DNA of 64,000 bases, taken from contig NZ_CP014226.1 of NCBI RefSeq assembly GCF_001545155.1, positions 3,181,918 to 3,245,917 of the forward strand, given 5' to 3'. Numbering within the stretch: position 1 is the first letter of the stretch; every line of letters begins with the position of its first letter. This DNA comes from Halomonas chromatireducens. GTDB taxonomy: Bacteria; Pseudomonadota; Gammaproteobacteria; Pseudomonadales; Halomonadaceae. A program made the translations under genes and the position numbers. Shown piece after piece: positions 45,692 through 56,652 of the stretch. Under the pieces are notes generated by a model. That model ran no database searches and had not been told where the DNA came from. It saw only the letters and a program-made list of their open reading frames with translations.

Positions 45692-46102
45692 ATCGACTTC
45701 ACCACCAGCACCACGCCGGAGCTGCTGGCCGGCGGCGAGGTTCCGGCATCCGAAGCGGTAGCCCGGGCTCTGGAGGCCCGCGTGGAGCCCTCGCGAATCA
45801 CCCTCTCCTCGGATGCCAACGCCTCACTGCCCCAGTTCGACGAGGCACGCCGCTTCGTCGGCCTGAGGGCAGGTCGCCTGGGCAGCCTGTTCGAGGTGCT
45901 GGGCCAGTGCATCAACGACCACGGCATTCCGCTGGAACGCGCCATCGGTGTCGCCAGCACCCATGCCGCCGACGCCCTCAAGCTCCCACGCAAGGGGCGC
46001 CTGCAGGTGGGCAGCGACGCCGATCTGCTGGTGTTGGCCGAAGACGAATGGGCCACCGATGAAGTGTGGGCAATGGGTCGGAGGGTCTATCGGCGGGGCT
46101 GA
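45692..46102 (+). pseudogene. iadA: Isoaspartyl dipeptidase (iadA), 3' remnant
   Basis: About 136 codons of the C-terminal third of IadA: 'IDFTTSTTPELLAGGEV', 'ITLSSDANASLPQFDE', 'AIGVASTHAADALKLP' and 'GSDADLLVL'. The N-terminal two thirds, including most metal ligands, are missing. The fragment is joined directly to a VOC remnant in another frame, so no functional dipeptidase can be made. Its 3' end overlaps the convergent 46087 gene by 16 bp. Confidence 0.85.
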
Positions 46103-46806
46103 TGGGAACGTACCAGAATGCCGCGCCCGGCGAAGAAACGTTCGAAGACCGCGGGCTCGAGGCGGGCATCCGCCTGGCTAGTGCCGGATAGCCCGGATGG
46201 ATTATGGAAGCGCAGGCGTCTGCGCCCATCCAGGCCGAAAAGGTAGACCAGATGCCCGCCCCGATGTGGCGGGCTCAGTTCGGGCGTGCGAATGGAAGGG
46301 TGTACCGAAGCGATAATACGATGCCCCTCACCGAGCCACTGTAGAAAATGCCCCGTATCCACATGCTCTATCACTCCGGCGTCCAGTTGATGCCACTCCC
46401 TCAATAGCTGAACCAGCGGGCGATAGTAGAGCCCCTTGATGCCCTCCTCGGTGATAACGTAACCACCCGCTTCACGGCACTGCGTCAACAGCTCAAAGAG
46501 GCTTCGCCGCTCACCTCGCAGGTCCTCCAGCAGCATCTTGGTGCAAGCCATACCACAGATGTGCCTTGCCCAGCTGGCATACTCAGTGGCGCTTGCAGCG
46601 CCGGATTCCGCCCAGCGCGGGTCGTCGGAGGCGTTCATGTTCCCGTCGAGAAAGCCGGGGATAAGTTCACTAGAAACCCACTGTGAATAGTACGCAGGAA
46701 CGTTCCTGTCTGGCATTGATTCCCTCAAGAATGGTTCAAGGCTCTTGTGCGACTCTGGCACATCGCTTCGCACACCGGCCACGCCACCCAGTTGGATGGT
46801 CACCAT
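46087..46806 (-). CDS. C39-like (papain-fold) cysteine peptidase family protein
   Basis: A 239-residue protein without a clear signal peptide. A Cys in 'HICGMACTKMLLE' (about residue 84 or 88), a His in 'RGGHLVYLFGLDG' (about 187) and an Asn in 'RFHNPSG' (about 202) have the order and spacing of C39-type papain-fold enzymes. No ABC exporter or precursor peptide lies nearby, so a bacteriocin-processing role is not indicated. It is the last gene of the amine cluster, 59 bp after the amidotransferase gene, and may act on amide bonds in that pathway; this is conjecture. Confidence 0.7.
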   Translation of the reverse strand: MVTIQLGGVAGVRSDVPESHKSLEPFLRESMPDRNVPAYYSQWVSSELIPGFLDGNMNASDDPRWAESGAASATEYASWARHICGMACTKMLLEDLRGERRSLFELLTQCREAGGYVITEEGIKGLYYRPLVQLLREWHQLDAGVIEHVDTGHFLQWLGEGHRIIASVHPSIRTPELSPPHRGGHLVYLFGLDGRRRLRFHNPSGLSGTSQADARLEPAVFERFFAGRGILVRSHQPRR

Positions 46807-46865: not shown

Positions 46866-47582
46866 TCACCTGCCCTCCATGGCACGCCTCATGAAGTTGA
46901 GGATCCAGCGCACCATCAGGGTGTCATCCACTGGCGCCGAGAGCGAGGCCTCCCCCTCGCGTACTCGCTCTTCGCCCACCAGCTCGGCGCGCAGCGCCAT
47001 CAGGTCCCGCGAATAGGGCTTGGTGAATTCCGGATGTCCCTGTACGCCGAGGAAGTGCGCGCCGATCTGGATCAGATAGAAGGGACAGAAGTCGCTACCG
47101 GCGAGCACCCGGGTTTGTAGTGGCAATTCGCTGACCTGATCCTGATGGCTGACCAGCAGGTCCAGGCTCGGCTGCCAGGGCGCCATCCACTCCGTTCCTG
47201 TCTCGACACGATTGAACGACATCCCCACGCCCCAGCCCTTGGGGCTCTTCACCACTGCGCCGCCCAGTGCCTTGGCCATCAACTGATGGCCGAAGCAGAT
47301 GCCCACCAGCGGCTTGCCCGCCTCCCACAGCCGCCGCACGAAGCCGCAGAGGTCATCGACCCAGGCAAGGCCGTCATTGACGCCGTGCTTGGAGCCGGTG
47401 GTCAGCCAGGCATCCACCGCATCGATATCGTCGGGAATCTCCCCATCCTGGCAGCGCCAGACGACGAACTCGAGCGCCGGGTCGACCTTATGGAAGAGCG
47501 CCGCGAACATCCCCGGATAGTTGCCATGGGCCTCGCGCAGCTCAGGCGCCACATCATCGCACTGCAGAAGCCCTATACGCAT
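46866..47582 (-). CDS. Class I glutamine amidotransferase-like hydrolase
   Basis: A 238-residue protein of the GATase1 fold. The nucleophile elbow is 'GICFGHQLMA' (Cys about 92) and the His-Glu pair is in 'GVQGHPEFTK' (about 181). It resembles GMP synthase-type amidotransferase domains without a synthetase partner. In gamma-glutamyl amine pathways a related class I amidotransferase (PuuD) hydrolyses the gamma-glutamyl amide and frees the product. Its position behind the synthetase and dehydrogenase genes supports that role here. Confidence 0.88.
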   Translation of the reverse strand: MRIGLLQCDDVAPELREAHGNYPGMFAALFHKVDPALEFVVWRCQDGEIPDDIDAVDAWLTTGSKHGVNDGLAWVDDLCGFVRRLWEAGKPLVGICFGHQLMAKALGGAVVKSPKGWGVGMSFNRVETGTEWMAPWQPSLDLLVSHQDQVSELPLQTRVLAGSDFCPFYLIQIGAHFLGVQGHPEFTKPYSRDLMALRAELVGEERVREGEASLSAPVDDTLMVRWILNFMRRAMEGR

Positions 47583-47651
47583 CGCTCAGTCTCCCTGTGG
47601 GGTTACGGCCACTCTGTTTACGGTCGTCCATCCTGTTCACCGCCTTTCTTA

Positions 47652-47705
47652 CTGCTTACCGTCGCCCTGCTGATTACAGTCGCCCTGCTGATTACAGTCG
47701 CCCTG
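47652..47705 (-). repeat. 18-bp tandem repeat over the alcohol dehydrogenase stop codon
   Basis: Three 18-bp units at 47688-47705, 47670-47687 and 47652-47669. On the minus strand the unit is CAGGGCGACTGTAATCAG, identical in two copies and changed at three positions in the third. Each contains TAA in the same register. The first TAA (47692-47694) is the real stop of the dehydrogenase. Weaker copies seem to extend to about 47612. Confidence 0.85.
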
Positions 47706-48876
47706 CTACGGCGGCAACGAAGATATCGCAGTAGTCGTCGGCAGTGAACTTGATCGGGTTGGAGCCCGATGACGGGTCGGCCACGGCCATCCTGCCCACC
47801 TTGTCGGCCTGGCGGGTATCGATGCCGAGGTCGGCCAGGGTGTGCGGTATGCCCAGCCGCTCACGCATTTCCAGAACCCAGTCGATCACCGCCGCCGTGC
47901 CCGGCTGGTCCAGATCGAGGTAGCGGCCCAGGCGCACCATGGGCTCACCGATGGCGCGCTCGTTGGCACGCAGCACATAGGGCATCAGGATGGCGTTGAG
48001 CGTTCCGTGGTGGGCATCATGCAGCGCGCCGAGCGGATGCGCCAGGGCATGCATCGCCCCCAGACCGCGCTGGAAGGCGGTAGCGCCCATGCTCGACGCC
48101 ACCAGCATGTTCATGCGCGCTTCCAGGTCGTGCCCGTCGGCATAGGCGCGGGGCAGATAGTGATGGATGCGTCGCATCCCCTCGACCGCGATGCCCTCGG
48201 CCATGGGGTGATAGAGCGGTGAGCACCAGGCTTCCATGCAGTGGGACAGGGCATCCATGCCGGTGGCGGCGGTCATCGCCCGTGGCAGTCCCACGGTCAG
48301 CTCGGGGTCGAGGATCACCGTGGCCGGCACCATGCCAGGATGGAAGATGATGCGCTTGACGTGCTCGACCTCGTCGGTGATCACCGAGGCACGCCCCACC
48401 TCCGAACCGGTTCCCGCGGTGGTCGGCACGGCAATGATGGGCGCAATGGCCTCGGCATCGGCGTTTTTCCAGTTGTCGCCGATATCCTCCAGCGACCACA
48501 GCGATAGCCCTTCCCGCTGATTGGCCATCAGCGCCACGGCCTTGGCGGCATCCAGCCCCGAACCGCCGCCGAAGGCGATCACGCCGTCATGGCCGCCGTC
48601 CCGAAAGGCTGCCATGCCGTCGAGGACGTTCTTCCCGGTGGGGTTGCCCTTCACCTGGCTGAAGACGGCAATCCCGAGCCCGCTGTCCTCGCAGGCTTGC
48701 ACGCTCTCCTGCACCATCGGCAGCGCGGCGAGGCCGGGGTCGGTGATCAGCAGCGGTGCCTGCATGCCGAGCGCCTTGCAGGCCGCGGGCAGCTCACGAA
48801 TGCGTCCCACCCCGGTGAGGATATTGGCGGGGTAGTTCCAGCCCGTGGTGAACGGCTGCATATCCGGATGATTCAT
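47692..48876 (-). CDS. Iron-containing (type III) alcohol dehydrogenase
   Basis: A 394-residue NAD(P)-dependent dehydrogenase. The nucleotide site is 'GGGSGLDAAKAVA' (about 95), 'TTAGTGSEVGRASV' follows, and metal ligands lie in 'TGMDALSHCMEA' and 'AMHALAHPLGALHDAHHGTL' (one Asp, three His). It would oxidise an alcohol to an aldehyde. The aldehyde dehydrogenase gene lies 27 bp upstream in the same operon, so a two-step alcohol-to-acid oxidation is likely. The C-terminus 'AAVAGRL' ends in an 18-bp tandem repeat. Confidence 0.92.
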   Translation of the reverse strand: MNHPDMQPFTTGWNYPANILTGVGRIRELPAACKALGMQAPLLITDPGLAALPMVQESVQACEDSGLGIAVFSQVKGNPTGKNVLDGMAAFRDGGHDGVIAFGGGSGLDAAKAVALMANQREGLSLWSLEDIGDNWKNADAEAIAPIIAVPTTAGTGSEVGRASVITDEVEHVKRIIFHPGMVPATVILDPELTVGLPRAMTAATGMDALSHCMEAWCSPLYHPMAEGIAVEGMRRIHHYLPRAYADGHDLEARMNMLVASSMGATAFQRGLGAMHALAHPLGALHDAHHGTLNAILMPYVLRANERAIGEPMVRLGRYLDLDQPGTAAVIDWVLEMRERLGIPHTLADLGIDTRQADKVGRMAVADPSSGSNPIKFTADDYCDIFVAAVAGRL

Positions 48877-48903
48877 ATTGAGCTCCTGGGCGGTGCTGCC
48901 CGT

Positions 48904-50289
48904 TCAGGCATGCTTGAGGTGAAAGGACTTGGGCCGCGTCAGCGTCTCGTAGCCCAGCCGCGAAAGGGAACAGCCGCGCCCCGACTGCTTGACCCCGGTC
49001 CAGGCCAGCTCCGGGTCGAGGTAGTCGCAGCGGTTGGTGAAGACGGTGCCGGCGTCGAGCCGATGGACCAGCGCCTCGCCGATGGCCCTGTCACGGGTGA
49101 ACACCGCCGCGGTGAGGCCGAAGTCGCTGTCGTTCATCAATGCGACGGCTTCGTCGTCGGAGTCCACCGCCATGATGCCCACCACCGGACCGAAGCTCTC
49201 TTCGGTCATCACCCGCATCGAGTGGTCGACCCCGGTCAGCACCTGGGGTGCCAGGTAGGCGCTGCCCGGCACCGAGAGCGGATAGTCGCCGGGGTCGATC
49301 CAGGCCCTGGCCCCGGCGGCAACCGCCTCCTCGATCTGGCCGCGCACGAAATCCGCCGCCGCCGGCCGCACCAGCGGGCCCAGGGAGGTGGCCGGGTCGG
49401 TAGGATTGCCGAGCCGAAGCTGCCTGACCCAGGCCACGGCACGCTCGACGAAGGCATCGAAGATGTCGCGATGCACGTAGAGACGCTCGATGCCACAGCA
49501 GCTCTGGCCCGAATTGAAGAAGGCACCGTCCATCACCCCGTCGACGGCGGCATTCAGGTCGACGTCGGCACGGATATAGGCCGGGTCCTTGCCGCCCAGC
49601 TCGAGCCCGGTGGCAATGAAACGCCCGGCGACGTTGCGCTCGACCATCGCCCCGCCGGGAACCGATCCGGTGAAGGAGACATGGGCGATGCGGCGGTCCT
49701 GGATCAGGCCTTCGGTGGCCTCGTGGGAGAGATGCAGGTGCTGGAAGACCCCTTCCGGCAGCCCGGCCTCGTCGAAGGCCTCTTGGAATCGTTCGGCGCA
49801 AAGCGGTGTCTGCGCCGAGTGCTTGAGGATCACCGTGTTGCCGGCCATGATCGCCGGCACCACCGCATTCACCGCGGTCATGAACGGAAAGTTCCAGGGC
49901 GCGACGATGAACGACACCCCCAGCGGCTCGCGGGTGATGTAGCGGGTGAAGCCAGGCTTGTCCTCGAGCACGATGGGGGCCAGCGCGTCGTCCGCCAACG
50001 CAATCATGGTGCGCGCCCGCTCCTCGAAGCCACCGATCTCGCCCGCAGCGGCGGCGATTGGCCGCCCCATCTGCCAGGTCAGTTCCTCTGCCATCGCGTC
50101 GCGGCGCGCCACGAAGGCATCCACCATGCGCGAGCAATACCGGGCACGCTCGGAGAGCGGCACGTCGCGCCAGGCCCGCTGCGCCGTCACCGCCCGCGCC
50201 AGCGTCGCCTCCACCAGGGCCGGATCGGCCTGTTCCCGCTCCACATAGACGGAGCCATCCACCGGTGAAATCGTCTTCTGTAAGGCCAC
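48904..50289 (-). CDS. Aldehyde dehydrogenase family protein
   Basis: A 461-residue NAD(P)-dependent enzyme. 'APWNFPFMTAVNAVVPAIMA' is the cofactor-binding start, catalytic Glu lies in 'LELGGKDPAYI' (about 236), and catalytic Cys in 'FNSGQSCCGIERLYV' (about 270). The end 'GVKQSGRGCSLSRLGYE' matches the family. It converts an aldehyde to a carboxylate. In the cluster it would oxidise the aldehyde produced by the neighbouring iron-type alcohol dehydrogenase, probably while the amino group is gamma-glutamylated. Confidence 0.93.
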   Translation of the reverse strand: MALQKTISPVDGSVYVEREQADPALVEATLARAVTAQRAWRDVPLSERARYCSRMVDAFVARRDAMAEELTWQMGRPIAAAAGEIGGFEERARTMIALADDALAPIVLEDKPGFTRYITREPLGVSFIVAPWNFPFMTAVNAVVPAIMAGNTVILKHSAQTPLCAERFQEAFDEAGLPEGVFQHLHLSHEATEGLIQDRRIAHVSFTGSVPGGAMVERNVAGRFIATGLELGGKDPAYIRADVDLNAAVDGVMDGAFFNSGQSCCGIERLYVHRDIFDAFVERAVAWVRQLRLGNPTDPATSLGPLVRPAAADFVRGQIEEAVAAGARAWIDPGDYPLSVPGSAYLAPQVLTGVDHSMRVMTEESFGPVVGIMAVDSDDEAVALMNDSDFGLTAAVFTRDRAIGEALVHRLDAGTVFTNRCDYLDPELAWTGVKQSGRGCSLSRLGYETLTRPKSFHLKHA

Positions 50290-50349
50290 TTGGCGTTCTC
50301 CTGCTGATTCATTGCATCGAGAGAAACAAGGGAAGACGCGTCATGAGCG

Positions 50350-50440
50350 AACGCAGGTCGTGCGCGGCCGGAGCGCAGGAACCGGAGCATACTTCAGTAT
50401 GTGAGGATTCCGAGCACCGCCCGCGTGCGAGATGCGGAGC
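50350..50440. repeat. Dispersed hairpin repeat, family B copy 3
   Basis: The core is GGAG-CATAC-TTCA-GTATG-TGAGG at about 50386-50405. It is flanked by CGGAGCGCAGGAACC on the left and GATTCCGAGCACCGCC on the right, with imperfectly paired outer arms. It occupies the gap between the glutamine synthetase-like and aldehyde dehydrogenase genes. The inner palindrome is CATAC/GTATG here but TTTAC/GTAAA in copy 1. Confidence 0.7.
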
Positions 50441-50462
50441 GCAATAGCGTGTTACTTGTTTC

Positions 50463-51842
50463 TCAAATGATTTCGAAATAGCGATCCAACTCCCAGTCAG
50501 TAATATGTCGCCGGAACTGCCGCTCCTCCCATTCGCGGGTCGCTGCAAAATGCTCGACGAAGTCGTCGCCGAACAGGGACCGTGCCGGCCCCGAGGCCTT
50601 GAGCCGCTGGGCGGCTTCCCACAGGGTCTGCGGCAGGGCCTGGCTGGCGGGGTGGGTCAGCTCGTAGGCGTTGCCGCTCACCGGCTCGCCCGGCTCGAGC
50701 CGCTGCTCGATGCCATGCAGCCCGGCACCGATCGCCGCGGCAAGGGCCAGGTAGGGGTTGGCGTCGGCACTGCCCAGGCGATATTCCACCCGCTGCGACT
50801 TGGCGCTGCCCGGTATCACCCGCAGCGCCGTGGTACGGTTCTCTACCCCCCAGGTGGCATCGGTGGGCGCCCAGAAGCCGGGGATCAGGCGGGTATAGCT
50901 GTTGACGGTCGGAGCGAACATGGCCAGGAACTCCGGCATCAGCTGTTGCTGCCCGGCCACGAAGTGACGCTGGATTTCGCTCATCTGGTGCGGCTTGTGG
51001 GCATCGAAGAAAGCCGACTCGCCGCTGTCGGCGTGATTGAGCGACAGGTGAATATGACCGCTCTGCCCGGGGTAGTCCGGCGACCACTTGGCCATGAAGG
51101 TGGCCATCAGGCCGCGACGCTGCGCCCACACCTTGGTGAACGTCTTGAACAGCGCGCCCTTGTCGCCGGCAGCCAGCGCCTCGTCGACGCCGATGGCCGC
51201 TTCCAGCACGCCGGGGCCGGTCTCGGTATGCAGGCCTTCGATGGGGAAATCCATCGCCTCGGAGAGCGCCAGTAGTTCGTGATAGAGCTCGCTGTGGACC
51301 GAACTTCTGAGCATCGAATAGCCCATCATGTCCGGCGTCAGCGGCTTGAGGTTGCGAAAGCCCTTTTCACGGATCGACTCCGGTGTCTCCTGGAACACGA
51401 AGAACTCGTATTCCAGCGCACCATGGGCAATAAATCCCATTTCGCGAGCCTTGGCCAGCACGCGGCGAAGCAGCCCGCGCGGACAGATCGCCTCGGCGGG
51501 GCCGGTGAACTCGGCGAGAAACAGCAGCATGTCACCTTCGCAGGCAAGGTCGCGACAGCTGTCGGGCAGAATTCTCAGGCCGGCATCCGGGTAGCCGGTA
51601 TGCCAACCGGTGTATTTGACGTTGTCGTAGAGCTCATCCTTGCTGTCCCAGCCCAGCACCACGTCGCAGAAGGCGAAGCCCTCTTCCAGCGCATGGAAGA
51701 ACTTGTCGCAGCGCATGTACTTGCCGACCATGATCCCGTCGATATCGAACAGGCCGACCTTGACGTGGCTCAGGCCGCGCTCCTCGACGATGCGCCGGGC
51801 ATCCTCCGCACTCTTGATCTCTCTTGCCTGAAGTCGGCTCAT
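50463..51842 (-). CDS. Glutamine synthetase-fold gamma-glutamylamide synthetase (PuuA/IpuC-like)
   Basis: A 459-residue ligase of the GS superfamily. Metal and ATP motifs include 'HGALEYEFFVF' (Glu ligands), 'TETGPGVLEAAIG', 'GQSGHIHLSLNH' (His ligand) and 'ENRTTALRVI' with the substrate Arg. It lacks the Tyr adenylylation signature of GlnA. Homologues such as PuuA (putrescine) and IpuC (isopropylamine) attach glutamate to a primary amine using ATP. The neighbouring alcohol and aldehyde dehydrogenases suggest an amino alcohol as substrate. The start at 51842 has GGGAGAGA upstream; a longer frame upstream is unlikely. Confidence 0.88.
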   Translation of the reverse strand: MSRLQAREIKSAEDARRIVEERGLSHVKVGLFDIDGIMVGKYMRCDKFFHALEEGFAFCDVVLGWDSKDELYDNVKYTGWHTGYPDAGLRILPDSCRDLACEGDMLLFLAEFTGPAEAICPRGLLRRVLAKAREMGFIAHGALEYEFFVFQETPESIREKGFRNLKPLTPDMMGYSMLRSSVHSELYHELLALSEAMDFPIEGLHTETGPGVLEAAIGVDEALAAGDKGALFKTFTKVWAQRRGLMATFMAKWSPDYPGQSGHIHLSLNHADSGESAFFDAHKPHQMSEIQRHFVAGQQQLMPEFLAMFAPTVNSYTRLIPGFWAPTDATWGVENRTTALRVIPGSAKSQRVEYRLGSADANPYLALAAAIGAGLHGIEQRLEPGEPVSGNAYELTHPASQALPQTLWEAAQRLKASGPARSLFGDDFVEHFAATREWEERQFRRHITDWELDRYFEII

Positions 51843-51946
51843 GGTCTCTCCCTTGGCTACCTTATTGTTGTCTATCGACACCCCGGCGATGGCTGAACGG
51901 GGCAAGCGGCAGGCGCCGCTTGCCCCACGCTTTCACTGTTTGACAC

Positions 51947-53011
51947 TCAGCTGTAGCGGTAGGGAGGACCGGCCTGCTGCATGGTCTGGCGATAATCCTT
52001 GAGGATCTGCACCACCCGTGCATTGCGATCGCTCTGTTCGGCGATCTCGTCCCAGAACTCCAGCGCCGCATCCTCCAGGGTTTGCCACTCCTCTTCGGGG
52101 ATGGAGGTCAGCTCCAGTTTGCCACCGGTGGTGCGATAGTGCGCCTCCCCCCACCAGTACCAGTGCTGCCGATAGTAGTGGGAGTTGTCCATGCACAGCT
52201 TGAACAGCGTCTGCAGATGCTCGGGGACCTCATTCCAGCGATCCGAATTGGCGAAGTAGGAGCCGGCCCAGGCGCCGGAAATATTGTTGGTCAGGTAATA
52301 GTTGGCAACGTCAGCCCAGCCAACGGTGTAAGCCTCGGTGATCCCCGCCCAGGCGATGCCATCGAGCTCCCGGGTCTGCATGGCAACCTCGATGTCTTCC
52401 CAAGGCAGCGTCACCGGCACCACACCGAAGCGGCTCAGGAAGCGTCCCGCCGTGGGGAAGGTGAAGACGCGCTTGCCGCGCAGGTCCTCGATGCTGCGAA
52501 TCGGGTCGCGGGTCACGAAGTTGCAGGGATCCCAGGCGCCGGCGCCGAGCCAGGTGACGCCGTCGATCTCGGCGTAGGCTTCCTCCCAGATCTCCCTGAG
52601 GCCGTAGTGGTTGAACAGTACCGGCACATCGAGGCTGTAGCGGGAGGCGAAGGGGAAGTAGCCACCGAAGACCGACACATCCACCGGTGCGGCGATGGAG
52701 TCGTCGTCGCTCTGAACCGCGTCGATGGTGCCGCGCTGCATGGCACGGAACAGCTCACCGGTGGGCACCAGCTGGTCGGCATAGAAGAGTTCGATCTCCA
52801 TCTCGCCGTTGGCGGCCTTGTTGAAGGCGTCGATGGAGGGCTTGATGACATGGGCAGCCAGCGCCGGTCCGGCATAGGTCTGCATGCGCCAGCGAATGGG
52901 GGCGCGGGACTGGGCGTGGACATAGGGGGCGCCGACGGTGGCCGCCCCTACGGTGGCGGCGGTGGCGACCCCGGCCTTCTTGAGGAAGTCCCGCCTGTTG
53001 CGATTGGTCAT
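51947..53011 (-). CDS. TRAP transporter substrate-binding protein (DctP family)
   Basis: A 354-residue periplasmic binding protein. The N-terminus is a Tat signal: 'NRRDFLKKAGVATAATV' with the RRDFLKK box, cleaved near 'VHAQS'. The body has the DctP pattern, with the substrate-anchoring Arg region 'LRGKRVFTFPTAGRFLSRFG' and 'QTRELDGIAWAGITEAY', where anchoring of a carboxylate is typical. Its aromatic-rich late section ('NSHYYRQHWYWWGE') is more common in binders of amphiphilic or amine-type ligands. It feeds the two permease genes upstream in the operon. Confidence 0.92.
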   Translation of the reverse strand: MTNRNRRDFLKKAGVATAATVGAATVGAPYVHAQSRAPIRWRMQTYAGPALAAHVIKPSIDAFNKAANGEMEIELFYADQLVPTGELFRAMQRGTIDAVQSDDDSIAAPVDVSVFGGYFPFASRYSLDVPVLFNHYGLREIWEEAYAEIDGVTWLGAGAWDPCNFVTRDPIRSIEDLRGKRVFTFPTAGRFLSRFGVVPVTLPWEDIEVAMQTRELDGIAWAGITEAYTVGWADVANYYLTNNISGAWAGSYFANSDRWNEVPEHLQTLFKLCMDNSHYYRQHWYWWGEAHYRTTGGKLELTSIPEEEWQTLEDAALEFWDEIAEQSDRNARVVQILKDYRQTMQQAGPPYRYS

Positions 53012-53074
53012 AATGATTCTCCCGATCTGGTTTGTTGTTGTTTCACTTGTCCACGGCCAGGCGCCAGGAAAGCG

Positions 53075-54397
53075 TCAGTAGCCGTAGTAGAGTTCCGGCA
53101 GCCATAGCGCCAGCTGCGGAAAAACGGTAATCAGGCCCAGTCCCAGCAGCATGATCAGCACGAACGGCCAGACGCTGCGATAGATGTCACCAAGGGACAC
53201 CTCCGGGGGCGCCATGGCCCGCATCAAAAACAGGTTGTAGCCGAACGGTGGCGTCATGTAGGCGATCTGCACGGTGATGGTGTAGAGCACCCCGTACCAC
53301 ACCGGGTCGAAGCCCAGGCTCACCACCAGCGGCACGTAGAGCGGCGCCACGATCACCAGCATTGCGGTATCGTCGAGGAACATGCCCATCAGGATGTAGG
53401 AGAGCTGCATCATCAGCAGGATCTCCCAGGGGCCGAGGCCCATGCGGTCGAGGAAGACATTCTCGATCGCACGTACCGCGCCCAGGCCGTCGAAAACCGC
53501 TCCGAAGCTGAGCGCGGCAAGAATGATCCACATGAACATGCAGCTGATGCCCAGGGTGCGGCGCACCGTGACCTCGATCACTGCCCGGGTCAGGCGACCC
53601 TTGAACAGCGCCGCCAGGGTCGCCGCGAAGGCACCATAGGCGGCACTCTCCACCAGGCTGGTGACCCCCATCAGGAACAGGCCTGTCATGGAGAAGAAGA
53701 TCAGCAGCGGCAGGATGCCGGCACGCAGCAGCTTGAGCCTTGCGCCCAGGCTCATGTCGCGCTCCTCCGGCGGCAAGGCCGGCCCCAGGCTCGGCTGCAG
53801 CCGGCAGCGCACCACGATATAGATCACGAACATGGCGGCCAGGATGAGCCCAGGGATGGCCCCGGCCAGCCACAGCTTGCCCACCGGCTGGCGGGCGATC
53901 ATGCCGTAGAGCACCAGCACCACACTGGGCGGCACCAGGATCCCCAGCGAGCTTCCCGCCTGGATTACACCGGTGACCATGATCTTGTCGTATCCCCGAC
54001 GCAGCAATTCAGGCAGGGCAATGCTGGCCCCGATCGCCATGCCGGCCACGCTCAGGCCGTTCATGGCCGAGACCACCACCATCAGGCCGATGGTACCCAC
54101 CGCCAGGCCACCCCGCAGCGAGCCCATCCAGACATGGAACATCTCGTAGAGGTCACCGGCGATGCCCGACTCGGAGAGCATGTAGCCCATGAACACGAAC
54201 AGCGGCAGGGTCAGCAGCGGATACCAGTTCATCAGCACGAAGCTGGCGTTGAACGGCATCTCCACGCCGCCATCTCCCCACAGCAGCAATGCCGAGGCGG
54301 CGCCGACAAAGCCGATGACGCCGAACACCCGCTGCCCGGTCAACAGCAGCAGCATCATGCTCGAGAACATCATCAGCGCGATCATCTCGTAGCTCAT
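53075..54397 (-). CDS. TRAP transporter large permease subunit (DctM family)
   Basis: A 440-residue inner-membrane protein with about 12 hydrophobic segments. Typical DctM stretches are 'LLTLPLFVFMGYMLSESGIA', 'GVIQAGSSLGILVPPSVVLV' and 'FLDDTAMLVIVAPLYVPLV'. It moves the ligand with sodium exchange. The start at 54397 overlaps the small permease stop by 4 bases, so the two are coupled. Confidence 0.94.
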   Translation of the reverse strand: MSYEMIALMMFSSMMLLLLTGQRVFGVIGFVGAASALLLWGDGGVEMPFNASFVLMNWYPLLTLPLFVFMGYMLSESGIAGDLYEMFHVWMGSLRGGLAVGTIGLMVVVSAMNGLSVAGMAIGASIALPELLRRGYDKIMVTGVIQAGSSLGILVPPSVVLVLYGMIARQPVGKLWLAGAIPGLILAAMFVIYIVVRCRLQPSLGPALPPEERDMSLGARLKLLRAGILPLLIFFSMTGLFLMGVTSLVESAAYGAFAATLAALFKGRLTRAVIEVTVRRTLGISCMFMWIILAALSFGAVFDGLGAVRAIENVFLDRMGLGPWEILLMMQLSYILMGMFLDDTAMLVIVAPLYVPLVVSLGFDPVWYGVLYTITVQIAYMTPPFGYNLFLMRAMAPPEVSLGDIYRSVWPFVLIMLLGLGLITVFPQLALWLPELYYGY

Positions 54398-54921
54398 TCG
54401 GCATCCTCCGCATAGATGTCCACCCCGCGGGCAATGGCGACATCCTTGAAGAAGGTCGCGACGGCCTGCAGCAGCATCAGCAGGATGCCGATACACATGA
54501 TGATCTTGATCGGCGCCAGCGGCGGCGCCCAGGCCGAGTAGTTGCGCTGCCCGTACTGCAACGCGTACTGGGTGCTGGAGATGCCGCCAAGCAGCAGCGT
54601 GACCAGGAAGAAGATCAGGAAGAGGATGGTGATGGCGTCGACCAGCGCCTGGGTGCGAGGCGTCCAGCGGCTATAGAAGAGGTCCATGCGAACATGGGCT
54701 CCCATCTGCATCGCATAGGCTCCGCCCAGCAGGTAATAGCTCACCAGCATGAACTGGGACATCTCAACGCCCCACATCAGCGGGCTGTTGAGCACCGTAC
54801 GCGAGAAGGAGGCATAGAGCAGCAGCCCCATCATGACGAAGACCAGGTACATGATCACCCGGCCCACCCCGCGATTGAGGCGGTCGACGAGGCGCACATA
54901 GCGTCTTATTGTTCTTGGCAT
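54394..54921 (-). CDS. TRAP transporter small permease subunit (DctQ family)
   Basis: A 175-residue protein with four TM helices (about 17-38, 50-70, 92-114 and 134-155). 'GAYAMQMGAHVRMDLFYSRW' after TM2 is the DctQ pattern. It pairs with the large subunit. The start was placed at 54921 by alignment; the ribosome-binding site is weak and 23 further codons are open upstream. It is the first intact gene of the minus-strand cluster. Confidence 0.88.
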   Translation of the reverse strand: MPRTIRRYVRLVDRLNRGVGRVIMYLVFVMMGLLLYASFSRTVLNSPLMWGVEMSQFMLVSYYLLGGAYAMQMGAHVRMDLFYSRWTPRTQALVDAITILFLIFFLVTLLLGGISSTQYALQYGQRNYSAWAPPLAPIKIIMCIGILLMLLQAVATFFKDVAIARGVDIYAEDAE

Positions 54922-55052: not shown

Positions 55053-55310
55053 TCAGGAGCGGGTAGAAACCGCCTCGGAGAGCCATGGCAGGGCCTGGTC
55101 GAGCTGGCGGCGGAAACGTTGCTCCAGCAGGCGGCGGCTGTCCCGGGCCAATAGCGCGGGCAGGTCGCCCAGCTCGTCTCGCCGCGCGACCAGGGTCAGT
55201 TCCCGGGTAAGCGGCGCCACCGGCAGCGGCGCCACCCGGACATTGAGATTCTCGAGCCCGGCCTGATAGAGACACAGCGGCGTGGTGATGGTCCAGCCGG
55301 CCCCGGCACT
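55053..55310 (-). pseudogene. LysR-type regulator, C-terminal remnant
   Basis: About 85 codons of the effector-domain end of a LysR-family regulator: '[20 protein letters not shown]', then 'VRVAPLPVAPLTRELTLVAR' and a terminal helix ending at the TGA 55053-55055. The DNA-binding N-terminus and most of the domain are absent; at about 55310 the sequence changes into betA on the other strand. A small hairpin ACTATCG / CGATAGT (55017-55037) after the stop may be its old terminator. It probably was the local regulator of the cluster. Confidence 0.75.
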
Positions 55311-56652
55311 GACCGACTGGTCCTATGCCGACTGCCTGCCCTATTTCCGCAAGGCCGAATGCCGCGATATCGGACCCGACGACTACCATGGTGGCGACGG
55401 CCCTGTCTCTGTCACGACCCCGAAGCCCGGCAACAATCCGCTGTATCGGACCTTTATCGATGCCGCCGTGCAGGCCGGCTACCCCGAGACACCTGACGTG
55501 AACGGCTACCAGCAGGAGGGTTTCGGCCCCATGGACCGTTTCGTCACCCCCAAGGGGCGCCGCGCCTCCACCGCTCGCGGCTATCTCGACCAGGCCAAGC
55601 AGCGGGAGAACCTCACCATCGAGACCCACGCCACCACGGACGTGATCGAGTTCGAGGGCAAGCGCGCCGTGGGCGTGCGCTATCTGCGCCGCGGCCAGCC
55701 CCACCAGGTCCGCGCCCACCGCGAGGTGCTGCTGTGTGCCGGCGCCATCGCCTCGCCGCAGATCCTGCAACGCTCCGGCGTCGGCAACCCCGATCACCTG
55801 CGTGAGCTCGACATCCCGGTGGTCCACGCCCTGCCCGGCGTCGGCGAGAACCTCCAGGACCACCTGGAGATGTATATCCAGTACGAATGCACGCAGCCGA
55901 TCTCCCTTTATCCCGCACTGAAATGGTACAACCAGCCCAAGATCGGCGCCGAGTGGCTGTTCAAGGGCACCGGCGTCGGCGCCAGCAACCAGTTCGAGGC
56001 AGCGGGTTTCATTCGCAGCAACGACAACGAAGCGTGGCCCAACCTTCAGTATCACTTCCTGCCCATCGCCATCAGCTACAACGGCAAGAGCGCGGTACAG
56101 GCCCACGGCTTCCAGGCCCACGTCGGGTCCATGCGCTCGGAGAGCCGGGGCAGGATTCGGCTGACCTCCCGGGACCCCGAGGCCGCGCCCAGCATTCTGT
56201 TCAACTACATGTCGCAGGAAAAGGACTGGCAGGAGTTTCGCGACGCCATCCGTCTGACCCGGGAGATCATTGCCCAGCCCGCCATGGATGCCTACCGCGG
56301 AAGGGAAGTGTCACCGGGTCCGGATGTCGAATCCGATGAAGCGCTCGACGCCTTCGTGCGCGAACACGCCGAAACCGCCTATCACCCCTGCGGCAGCTGT
56401 CGCATGGGGAACGATGAGATGGCGGTGGTCGATGGCAGCGGTTGCGTGCACGGCCTCGAGGGGCTGCGCGTCGTGGACGCCTCGCTGTTTCCGGTGATCC
56501 CCACCGGCAACCTCAATGCGCCGACGATCATGCTGGCCGAAAAGCTGGCCGACAGGATACGCGGGCGTGAACCGCTGCCCCCCTCGGACGCCCCCTACTT
56601 CGTCGCACAAGGCATCCCGGCGCGCAAGGCGCCTGAACGCCGACTCTACTGA
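55307..56652 (+). pseudogene. betA: Choline dehydrogenase-like gene (betA), 5'-truncated
   Basis: About 448 codons of a GMC-type flavoprotein, beginning at '[20 protein letters not shown]', which aligns near residue 125 of BetA. The FAD-binding N-terminus with its GxGxxG motif is missing. The remaining part is intact and includes '[18 protein letters not shown]' (active-site His) and '[20 protein letters not shown]'. An ATG at 55282 lies inside the lysR remnant. Without the FAD domain it should be inactive. It lies in reverse orientation directly against the lysR remnant. Confidence 0.85.

Follow-up and report, generated by a model that had tools for sequence, protein, structure and literature searches.

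A gamma-glutamyl pathway for ethanolamine has already been published for Chromohalobacter, Phaeobacter and Streptomyces (PMC9397018, PMC10132767, PMC6529630). In Phaeobacter MED193, the EtoVWX operon as described in PMC10132767 encodes a tripartite ATP-independent periplasmic (TRAP) carrier with the binding protein EtoX, followed by a ligase, an aldehyde dehydrogenase and an alcohol dehydrogenase, together with one hydrolase (the enzymes are designated ETAGA, GAADDH, GETADH and GGAH). The same steps are proposed for Chromohalobacter salexigens, with enzymes of families PF00120, PF00171 and PF00465 (PMC9397018, Table 2). Here we analyze a stretch of 64,000 nucleotides of the Halomonas chromatireducens genome (contig NZ_CP014226.1, positions 3,181,918 to 3,245,917; hereafter the window), in which a seven-gene operon very likely serves ethanolamine uptake, glutamyl capping, oxidation and glycine release. 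The operon encodes a TRAP carrier and, behind it, a ligase and two dehydrogenases of the three families named above. The pathway itself is not new; the differences from the published proteobacterial version are the first and the last enzyme.

The operon consists of seven consecutive intact open reading frames (ORFs), all on the minus strand and spanning 46866-54921 of the window, each with a Pfam match above the gathering score (Table 1); the seven-gene set proposed by the first-pass annotation is therefore confirmed. The EtoX-type TRAP carrier would bring in ethanolamine, which the ligase would couple to glutamate at the expense of ATP to form gamma-glutamylethanolamide. Oxidation of the alcohol end by the two dehydrogenases, the iron-type alcohol dehydrogenase and the aldehyde dehydrogenase, would then yield gamma-glutamylglycine, and the cysteine of the class I amidotransferase would cleave the gamma-glutamyl bond, so that glycine is released and glutamate regenerated. 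The glutamyl cap would prevent a reaction between amine and aldehyde. The Puu pathway of Escherichia coli likewise caps its substrate with glutamate, oxidises an aldehyde and then takes the glutamyl group off again, but uses the oxidase PuuB where the window has an alcohol dehydrogenase. The first-pass annotation had suggested a route from an amino alcohol through a gamma-glutamyl amide, an aldehyde and an acid to a free amino acid; judged from sequence, this route is supported by the EtoX-type binder, the substitution of a permease in relatives, an intact catalytic triad in the amidotransferase and a separate Puu pathway elsewhere in the genome. Ethanolamine, the substrate it named first, fits both the binder and the ethanolamine permease homologue found in relatives.

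We searched 117 genomes for the ligase and obtained matches at E 1e-60 or better in 61: 38 genomes of the same genus (the window's own included) at 82-100% identity, 10 genomes of other families (11 places) at 48-72% and 13 genomes at 32-36%. The closest named relatives are the ligases of Halomonas alkalisoli, Halomonas sp. M5N1S17 and Billgrantia montanilacus (97-98% identity). Among the 48 non-own places in the two upper bands, 47 were compared (the place omitted, in G116, has an incomplete gene at the end of a contig). The genes for ligase, aldehyde dehydrogenase, alcohol dehydrogenase and amidotransferase, a set that the first-pass annotation had proposed to look for in other genomes, lie in the same order and on the same strand in 35 of the 37 same-genus relatives, and the remaining two loci (L037 and L038) stop at contig ends; this order is thus not due to chance.

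The carrier points to ethanolamine. The best solved relative of the binding protein DctP is 4uab/4xf5 (E 3e-160, the next best being 2.4e-17), and DctP exceeds the cut-off of the twin-arginine translocation (TAT) signal model TIGR01409. In an alignment it has F183 at the position of an arginine in two near-identical ordinary TRAP binders; among 111 sequences (the window's included), the position of this carboxylate-binding arginine is occupied by phenylalanine in 106 and by tyrosine in five. We take 4uab to be the C. salexigens protein Csal_0678. According to PMC4646407, Csal_0678 binds ethanolamine, an atypical ligand, and is without the usual arginine; the EtoX homologue of Phaeobacter binds ethanolamine with a Kd of 7.9 uM, and proteins of its operon are raised on phosphorylethanolamine (PMC10132767). 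PMC5812351 rates ethanolamine as particularly surprising among the TRAP ligands newly found. The opinion of the first-pass annotation that a TRAP carrier would be an unusual entry for an amine has to be dropped, since ethanolamine is already a published TRAP ligand in these three sources.

The carrier is not the same in all relatives. EtoX is found in 27 of the 47 relative loci; in nine (seven of the same genus and two of other families) a permease homologue upstream of the ligase replaces the TRAP genes, and 11 have neither carrier in range. For example, in L063, one of the nine, the protein encoded immediately before the ligase exceeds the cut-off of the ethanolamine permease equivalog TIGR00908 (548 versus 381.75 bits; this family-model test was made on this one protein). 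Both carriers are present in L094 (Litchfieldella anticariensis). That the carrier is exchanged while the enzymes behind it stay the same independently supports ethanolamine as the substrate. Three of the 11 loci with neither carrier are of the same genus (L038, L054 and L069), and by eye no transporter gene adjoins the ligase in any of them; L069 has other TRAP permease genes about 3 kb upstream of the ligase (DctM 26% identical).

The ligase of the window shares 32% identity with the ligase of the Ruegeria operon, which is close to PDB entry 5dm3 (E 1.9e-240), presumably the C. salexigens ligase. In a tree of 26 chosen ligases, in which the Ruegeria sequence stands in for 5dm3 (not itself included), the window ligase falls in a clade with 100/100 support together with ligases of Pseudomonas, Grimontia, Thalassospira, Desulfopila, Legionella, Burkholderia and others (type B hereafter), whereas the Ruegeria ligase belongs to a distinct clade, also with 100/100 support (type A). 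The window ligase is thus of type B and falls outside the 5dm3-like clade, taken here as that of the published EtoVWX-type systems. Out of eight glutamine-synthetase motifs tried, five were found in GlnA of the same genome and compared; the site names used here are those we assume for glutamine synthetase. Two of the five, the ExE metal motif and NRT..R, are conserved, and the next metal motif has V in type B and Q in the other compared ligases, with an exception in Burkholderia (A). The region aligned to the ammonium-site aspartate differs, in a part where the alignment is poor. The two dehydrogenases are closer to those of Ruegeria: the aldehyde dehydrogenase (motifs FFNSGQSC at 257 and LELGG at 229) shares 56% identity and the iron-type alcohol dehydrogenase 54%, while the iron-type alcohol dehydrogenase paralogues of the same genome that give a match share 35-36% with the latter. 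Both dehydrogenases of types A and B are likely to be of the same subfamilies.

The last enzyme differs from the published one in family and in place. C. salexigens has a hydrolase of family PF05013 (PMC9397018, Table 2) and the window a class I amidotransferase; the hydrolase gene of Phaeobacter is at the 5' end of its operon (PMC10132767) and the amidotransferase gene of H. chromatireducens at the 3' end. The plasmid loci of Ruegeria and Paracoccus have a carrier with ligase, aldehyde dehydrogenase and alcohol dehydrogenase behind it in the order seen in the window, but an annotated N-formylglutamate amidohydrolase at the 5' end. No match to PF05013 (N-formylglutamate amidohydrolase) was found in the genome of H. 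chromatireducens. The catalytic triad of the amidotransferase is complete (C96, H183 and E185). Among solved structures the amidotransferase is closest to gamma-glutamyl peptidase 1 (E 1.2e-21), which we take to be a plant enzyme. It also has a weak match to PF07722 (Peptidase_C26) above the cut-off, the family to which PuuD presumably belongs, and E. coli PuuD gave no BLAST match to it at E 1e-2. The amidotransferase is predicted to hydrolyse the gamma-glutamyl bond of gamma-glutamylglycine.

An amidotransferase also occurs in the glnA4 cluster of Streptomyces (SCO1610-1615), whose GlnA4 is a gamma-glutamylethanolamide synthetase in vitro, with a Km of 0.47 mM for ethanolamine (PMC6529630); the likeness to the window is one of description. 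Three entries in the legend of Fig. 2 of that paper recall the window, namely glutamine amidotransferase (orf5), aldehyde dehydrogenase and putative ethanolamine transporter, so the association of such a ligase with an amidotransferase is not wholly new. In other respects the cluster as described there is unlike the window: a TRAP carrier is not mentioned, and the text of PMC6529630 assigns the last step to a member of the formylglutamate amidohydrolase family. The same legend gives a short-chain dehydrogenase, but Table 2 of PMC9397018 gives PF00465. We found no paper on an EtoX operon with a type B ligase and an amidotransferase, in a search that covered few subscription papers.

To see how ligase and hydrolase are paired, 130 loci were classified by tblastn: the 47 relatives, 80 named genome loci (the best 80 of 568 by EtoX alignment) and three plasmid loci. 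Among 75 loci with a type B ligase, 55 have the amidotransferase and none the formylglutamate-type hydrolase; among 36 with a type A ligase, 32 have the formylglutamate-type hydrolase and none the amidotransferase; and 19 have no ligase in range (three of them with a formylglutamate-type hydrolase). These counts are not independent, since all are related loci and likeness to EtoX was the basis on which the named ones were chosen. On a quick EtoX tree of 90 out of 111 sequences (21 same-genus rows were dropped before counting), the type of the neighbouring ligase changes at least seven times, with several deep forks being weak and the 19 ligase-less rows ignored; well-supported forks alone, with ligase-less rows as a third state, give at least four gains or losses for label A and at least five for label B. 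Two such cases are Pseudomonas guryensis (L146) and Pseudomonas sp. 8AS (L158), whose enzymes are of type A but whose EtoX proteins group with those from pseudomonads of type B. One carrier thus seems to work with both enzyme sets, an argument for a substrate common to the two. Both versions seem to be present within the halomonad family: EtoX has a match at E 1e-80 or better in 35 of 151 family genomes (24 at 86-100% identity, the window's own included, and 11 at 68-70%), and four genomes of the 68-70% group (G027, G056, G058 and G062) are also in the 32-36% band of ligase matches.

The balance tips slightly towards a picture of two enzyme sets for one pathway, with related middle enzymes and with first and last enzymes that differ and are strictly paired in the loci compared: a ligase from the IpuC side with a GMP-synthase-like amidotransferase, or a 5dm3-like ligase with a hydrolase like formylglutamate amidohydrolase. 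A mobile ethanolamine TRAP cassette would have been joined repeatedly to either set, with an ethanolamine permease in its place in other lineages. Plasmids carry parts of this picture. In Legionella lytica, genes for ligase, aldehyde dehydrogenase, alcohol dehydrogenase and a 'GMP synthase' (47% identical to the window amidotransferase) stand in line without a carrier, and in Rhizobium leguminosarum a ligase and an aldehyde dehydrogenase gene have a gene of the gamma-glutamyl hydrolase family nearby. The stretch from Paracoccus versutus has no annotation. In Tistrella, carrier genes are present and the ligase is absent; EtoX-type loci without a ligase in range include L099, L102, L105, L110, L116, L123 and L124, and in L099 (Parvibaculum) a 600-amino-acid (aa) ORF follows the carrier genes. 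L109, on a contig titled Bacillus subtilis SK6B4, clusters with Brucellaceae on the EtoX tree and is probably a mislabelled or contaminated record.

Several observations weigh against the ethanolamine pathway proposed for the operon. All four enzymes score below the curated NCBIfam cut-offs of the models listed (25 of 45 in the case of the aldehyde dehydrogenase), and the best models, 4-hydroxybutyrate dehydrogenase for the alcohol dehydrogenase and succinic semialdehyde dehydrogenase for the aldehyde dehydrogenase, are both far under their cut-offs. The ligase is more similar to annotated IpuC (isopropylamide synthetase; 38-39% identity) than to the published type of ethanolamine ligase (32%). 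The amidotransferase is not visible in 20 of the 75 type B loci, some of which, though not several of those from Pseudomonas, are cut by contig ends, and in four loci of Pseudomonas/Serpens that have the type B ligase and both dehydrogenases (L125, L149, L161 and L163) no hydrolase is seen by eye among the ORFs behind the alcohol dehydrogenase. A ligase is absent within range in 19 of the 83 named or plasmid EtoX-type loci. The plasmid of Burkholderia vietnamiensis has RpiR, ligase, aldehyde dehydrogenase and amidotransferase genes (the last 26% identical to the window's) and no annotated alcohol dehydrogenase. Finally, the regulator is split in this assembly.

The similarity to IpuC raises the alternative that the same route acts mainly on another short amino alcohol, e.g. 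on L-alaninol to give alanine, with ethanolamine as a secondary substrate. Among ligases with a specific functional annotation, the IpuC proteins of Paenarthrobacter aurescens TC1 are the nearest; their clusters have amidotransferase and aldehyde dehydrogenase genes nearby, as in the window, and alanine dehydrogenase genes about 2.6 and 8.6 kb off. The structure 4xf5 is, we assume, the same binding protein as 4uab with (S)-2-amino-1-propanol. However, the two annotated IpuC proteins are sister to type B with weaker support (89/84), and their clusters (L175 and L176) have annotated cytochrome P450, ferredoxin and short-chain dehydrogenase/reductase genes where the window has the iron-type alcohol dehydrogenase, with no P450 or ferredoxin gene among the operon proteins. 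Four amidotransferases of the IpuC clusters were compared with the window's: three align over 125-172 residues at 28-30% identity, and the fourth gives no match. The family model identifies the alternative carrier of L063 as an ethanolamine permease, and Phaeobacter EtoX binds ethanolamine with micromolar affinity, although the passage of PMC10132767 on this binding does not name alaninol among the analogues. We regard a main substrate other than ethanolamine within this group as improbable.

A longer amino alcohol, e.g. 3-aminopropanol or 4-aminobutanol converted to beta-alanine or gamma-aminobutyric acid (GABA), would agree with the names of the top NCBIfam models of the two dehydrogenases, but their scores far under the cut-offs and the carrier evidence, which favours ethanolamine, make it a very unlikely substrate. 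Least credible of all is a Puu-like polyamine pathway with its oxidase encoded elsewhere, because, although PuuB homologues are present elsewhere in the genome, each one found adjoins a PuuA-like gene of its own (one of them PuuC and PuuD genes as well), the window ligase falls outside the PuuA branch (31% identity to E. coli PuuA), and an alcohol dehydrogenase has, as we understand it, no role in the E. coli route.

Separate Puu genes are found elsewhere in the genome. One set is located at about 2.73 Mb of C1 (L086), with identities to the E. coli proteins of 47% (PuuA), 55% (PuuC), 46% (PuuD) and 65% (PuuB), and a second PuuA/PuuB-like pair (34% and 44% identical) at about 1.21 Mb (L087). 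The ORF after the latter pair resembles, by eye, a polyamine binding protein. As the first-pass annotation had noticed, PuuB and PuuE are missing from the operon: blastp with the E. coli proteins gives no match among the operon proteins. PuuE gave no match in the stretches of this genome that were searched, no genome-wide search having been made.

Table 1. Genes of the proposed ethanolamine operon and the adjacent regulator remnant (positions in the window)
Feature	Position	Strand	Evidence
LysR remnant, residues 234-319 only (last 86)	55056..55313	-	94% to intact LysR of relative G005
DctQ, TRAP small membrane subunit (EtoV-like)	54394..54921	-	PF04290, E 3.8e-24; start at ATG 54921
DctM, TRAP large membrane subunit (EtoW-like)	53075..54397	-	PF06808, E 1.9e-65; start at ATG 54397
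DctP, TAT-signal binder, EtoX-like, predicted ethanolamine binder	51947..53011	-	PF03480, E 2.4e-18
Glutamine-synthetase-like gamma-glutamyl-amine ligase (Gln-synt_C), type B clade	50463..51842	-	PF00120, E 1.9e-97
Aldehyde dehydrogenase (Aldedh), predicted gamma-glutamyl aldehyde oxidation	48904..50289	-	PF00171, E 2.8e-125
Iron-type alcohol dehydrogenase, predicted gamma-glutamyl alcohol oxidation	47692..48876	-	PF00465 and PF25137
Class I amidotransferase (GATase), predicted gamma-glutamylglycine hydrolase	46866..47582	-	PF00117, E 1.5e-13

The starts of the ligase, DctM and DctQ genes were moved to a downstream ATG, after which the DctM start overlaps the DctQ stop by 4 bases. The ligase ORF was originally listed from a TTG at 51905; the ATG in Table 1 is preferred because it fits the length of most close homologues (459 aa).

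The regulator also differs from that of the published EtoVWX-type operons, which have RpiR: a lysR gene lies upstream of the operon in 33 of the 47 relative loci. In H. chromatireducens, whose genome is a single contig of 3.97 Mb, the remnant next to the operon is 588 kb from residues 1-259 of the LysR protein (C1:3824936-3825712), and the two lysR places have an exact 57-base stretch in common. A betA-like GMC oxidoreductase fragment (55282-56652) is broken at the same junction, its first part matching C1:1280934-1282357, about 2 Mb off; the junction is either a rearrangement or an assembly join. This fragment was considered as the missing FAD oxidase and rejected, and its gene is not counted in the operon, because of the distance of its first part and because the 600-aa homologue in G005 is on another contig than the operon.

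On the other side of the operon, the ORF at 46087-46806 (239 aa) has no Pfam or NCBIfam match and by eye resembles a C39-type cysteine protease. It was considered as an eighth gene and left out, since in all four relatives with a homologue in range (L036, L039, L043 and L052) a P-type ATPase gene intervenes.

PMC10132767 describes phospholipid-derived ethanolamine as important for the nitrogen supply of ocean life. The type B ligase is found in halomonads, Pseudomonas, Vibrionaceae, Legionella and some other lineages, and surveys keyed to the published type of ligase or hydrolase could overlook this second enzyme set. The predicted pathway would give a testable function to proteins that are now named merely glutamine synthetase, GMP synthase or amidotransferase.

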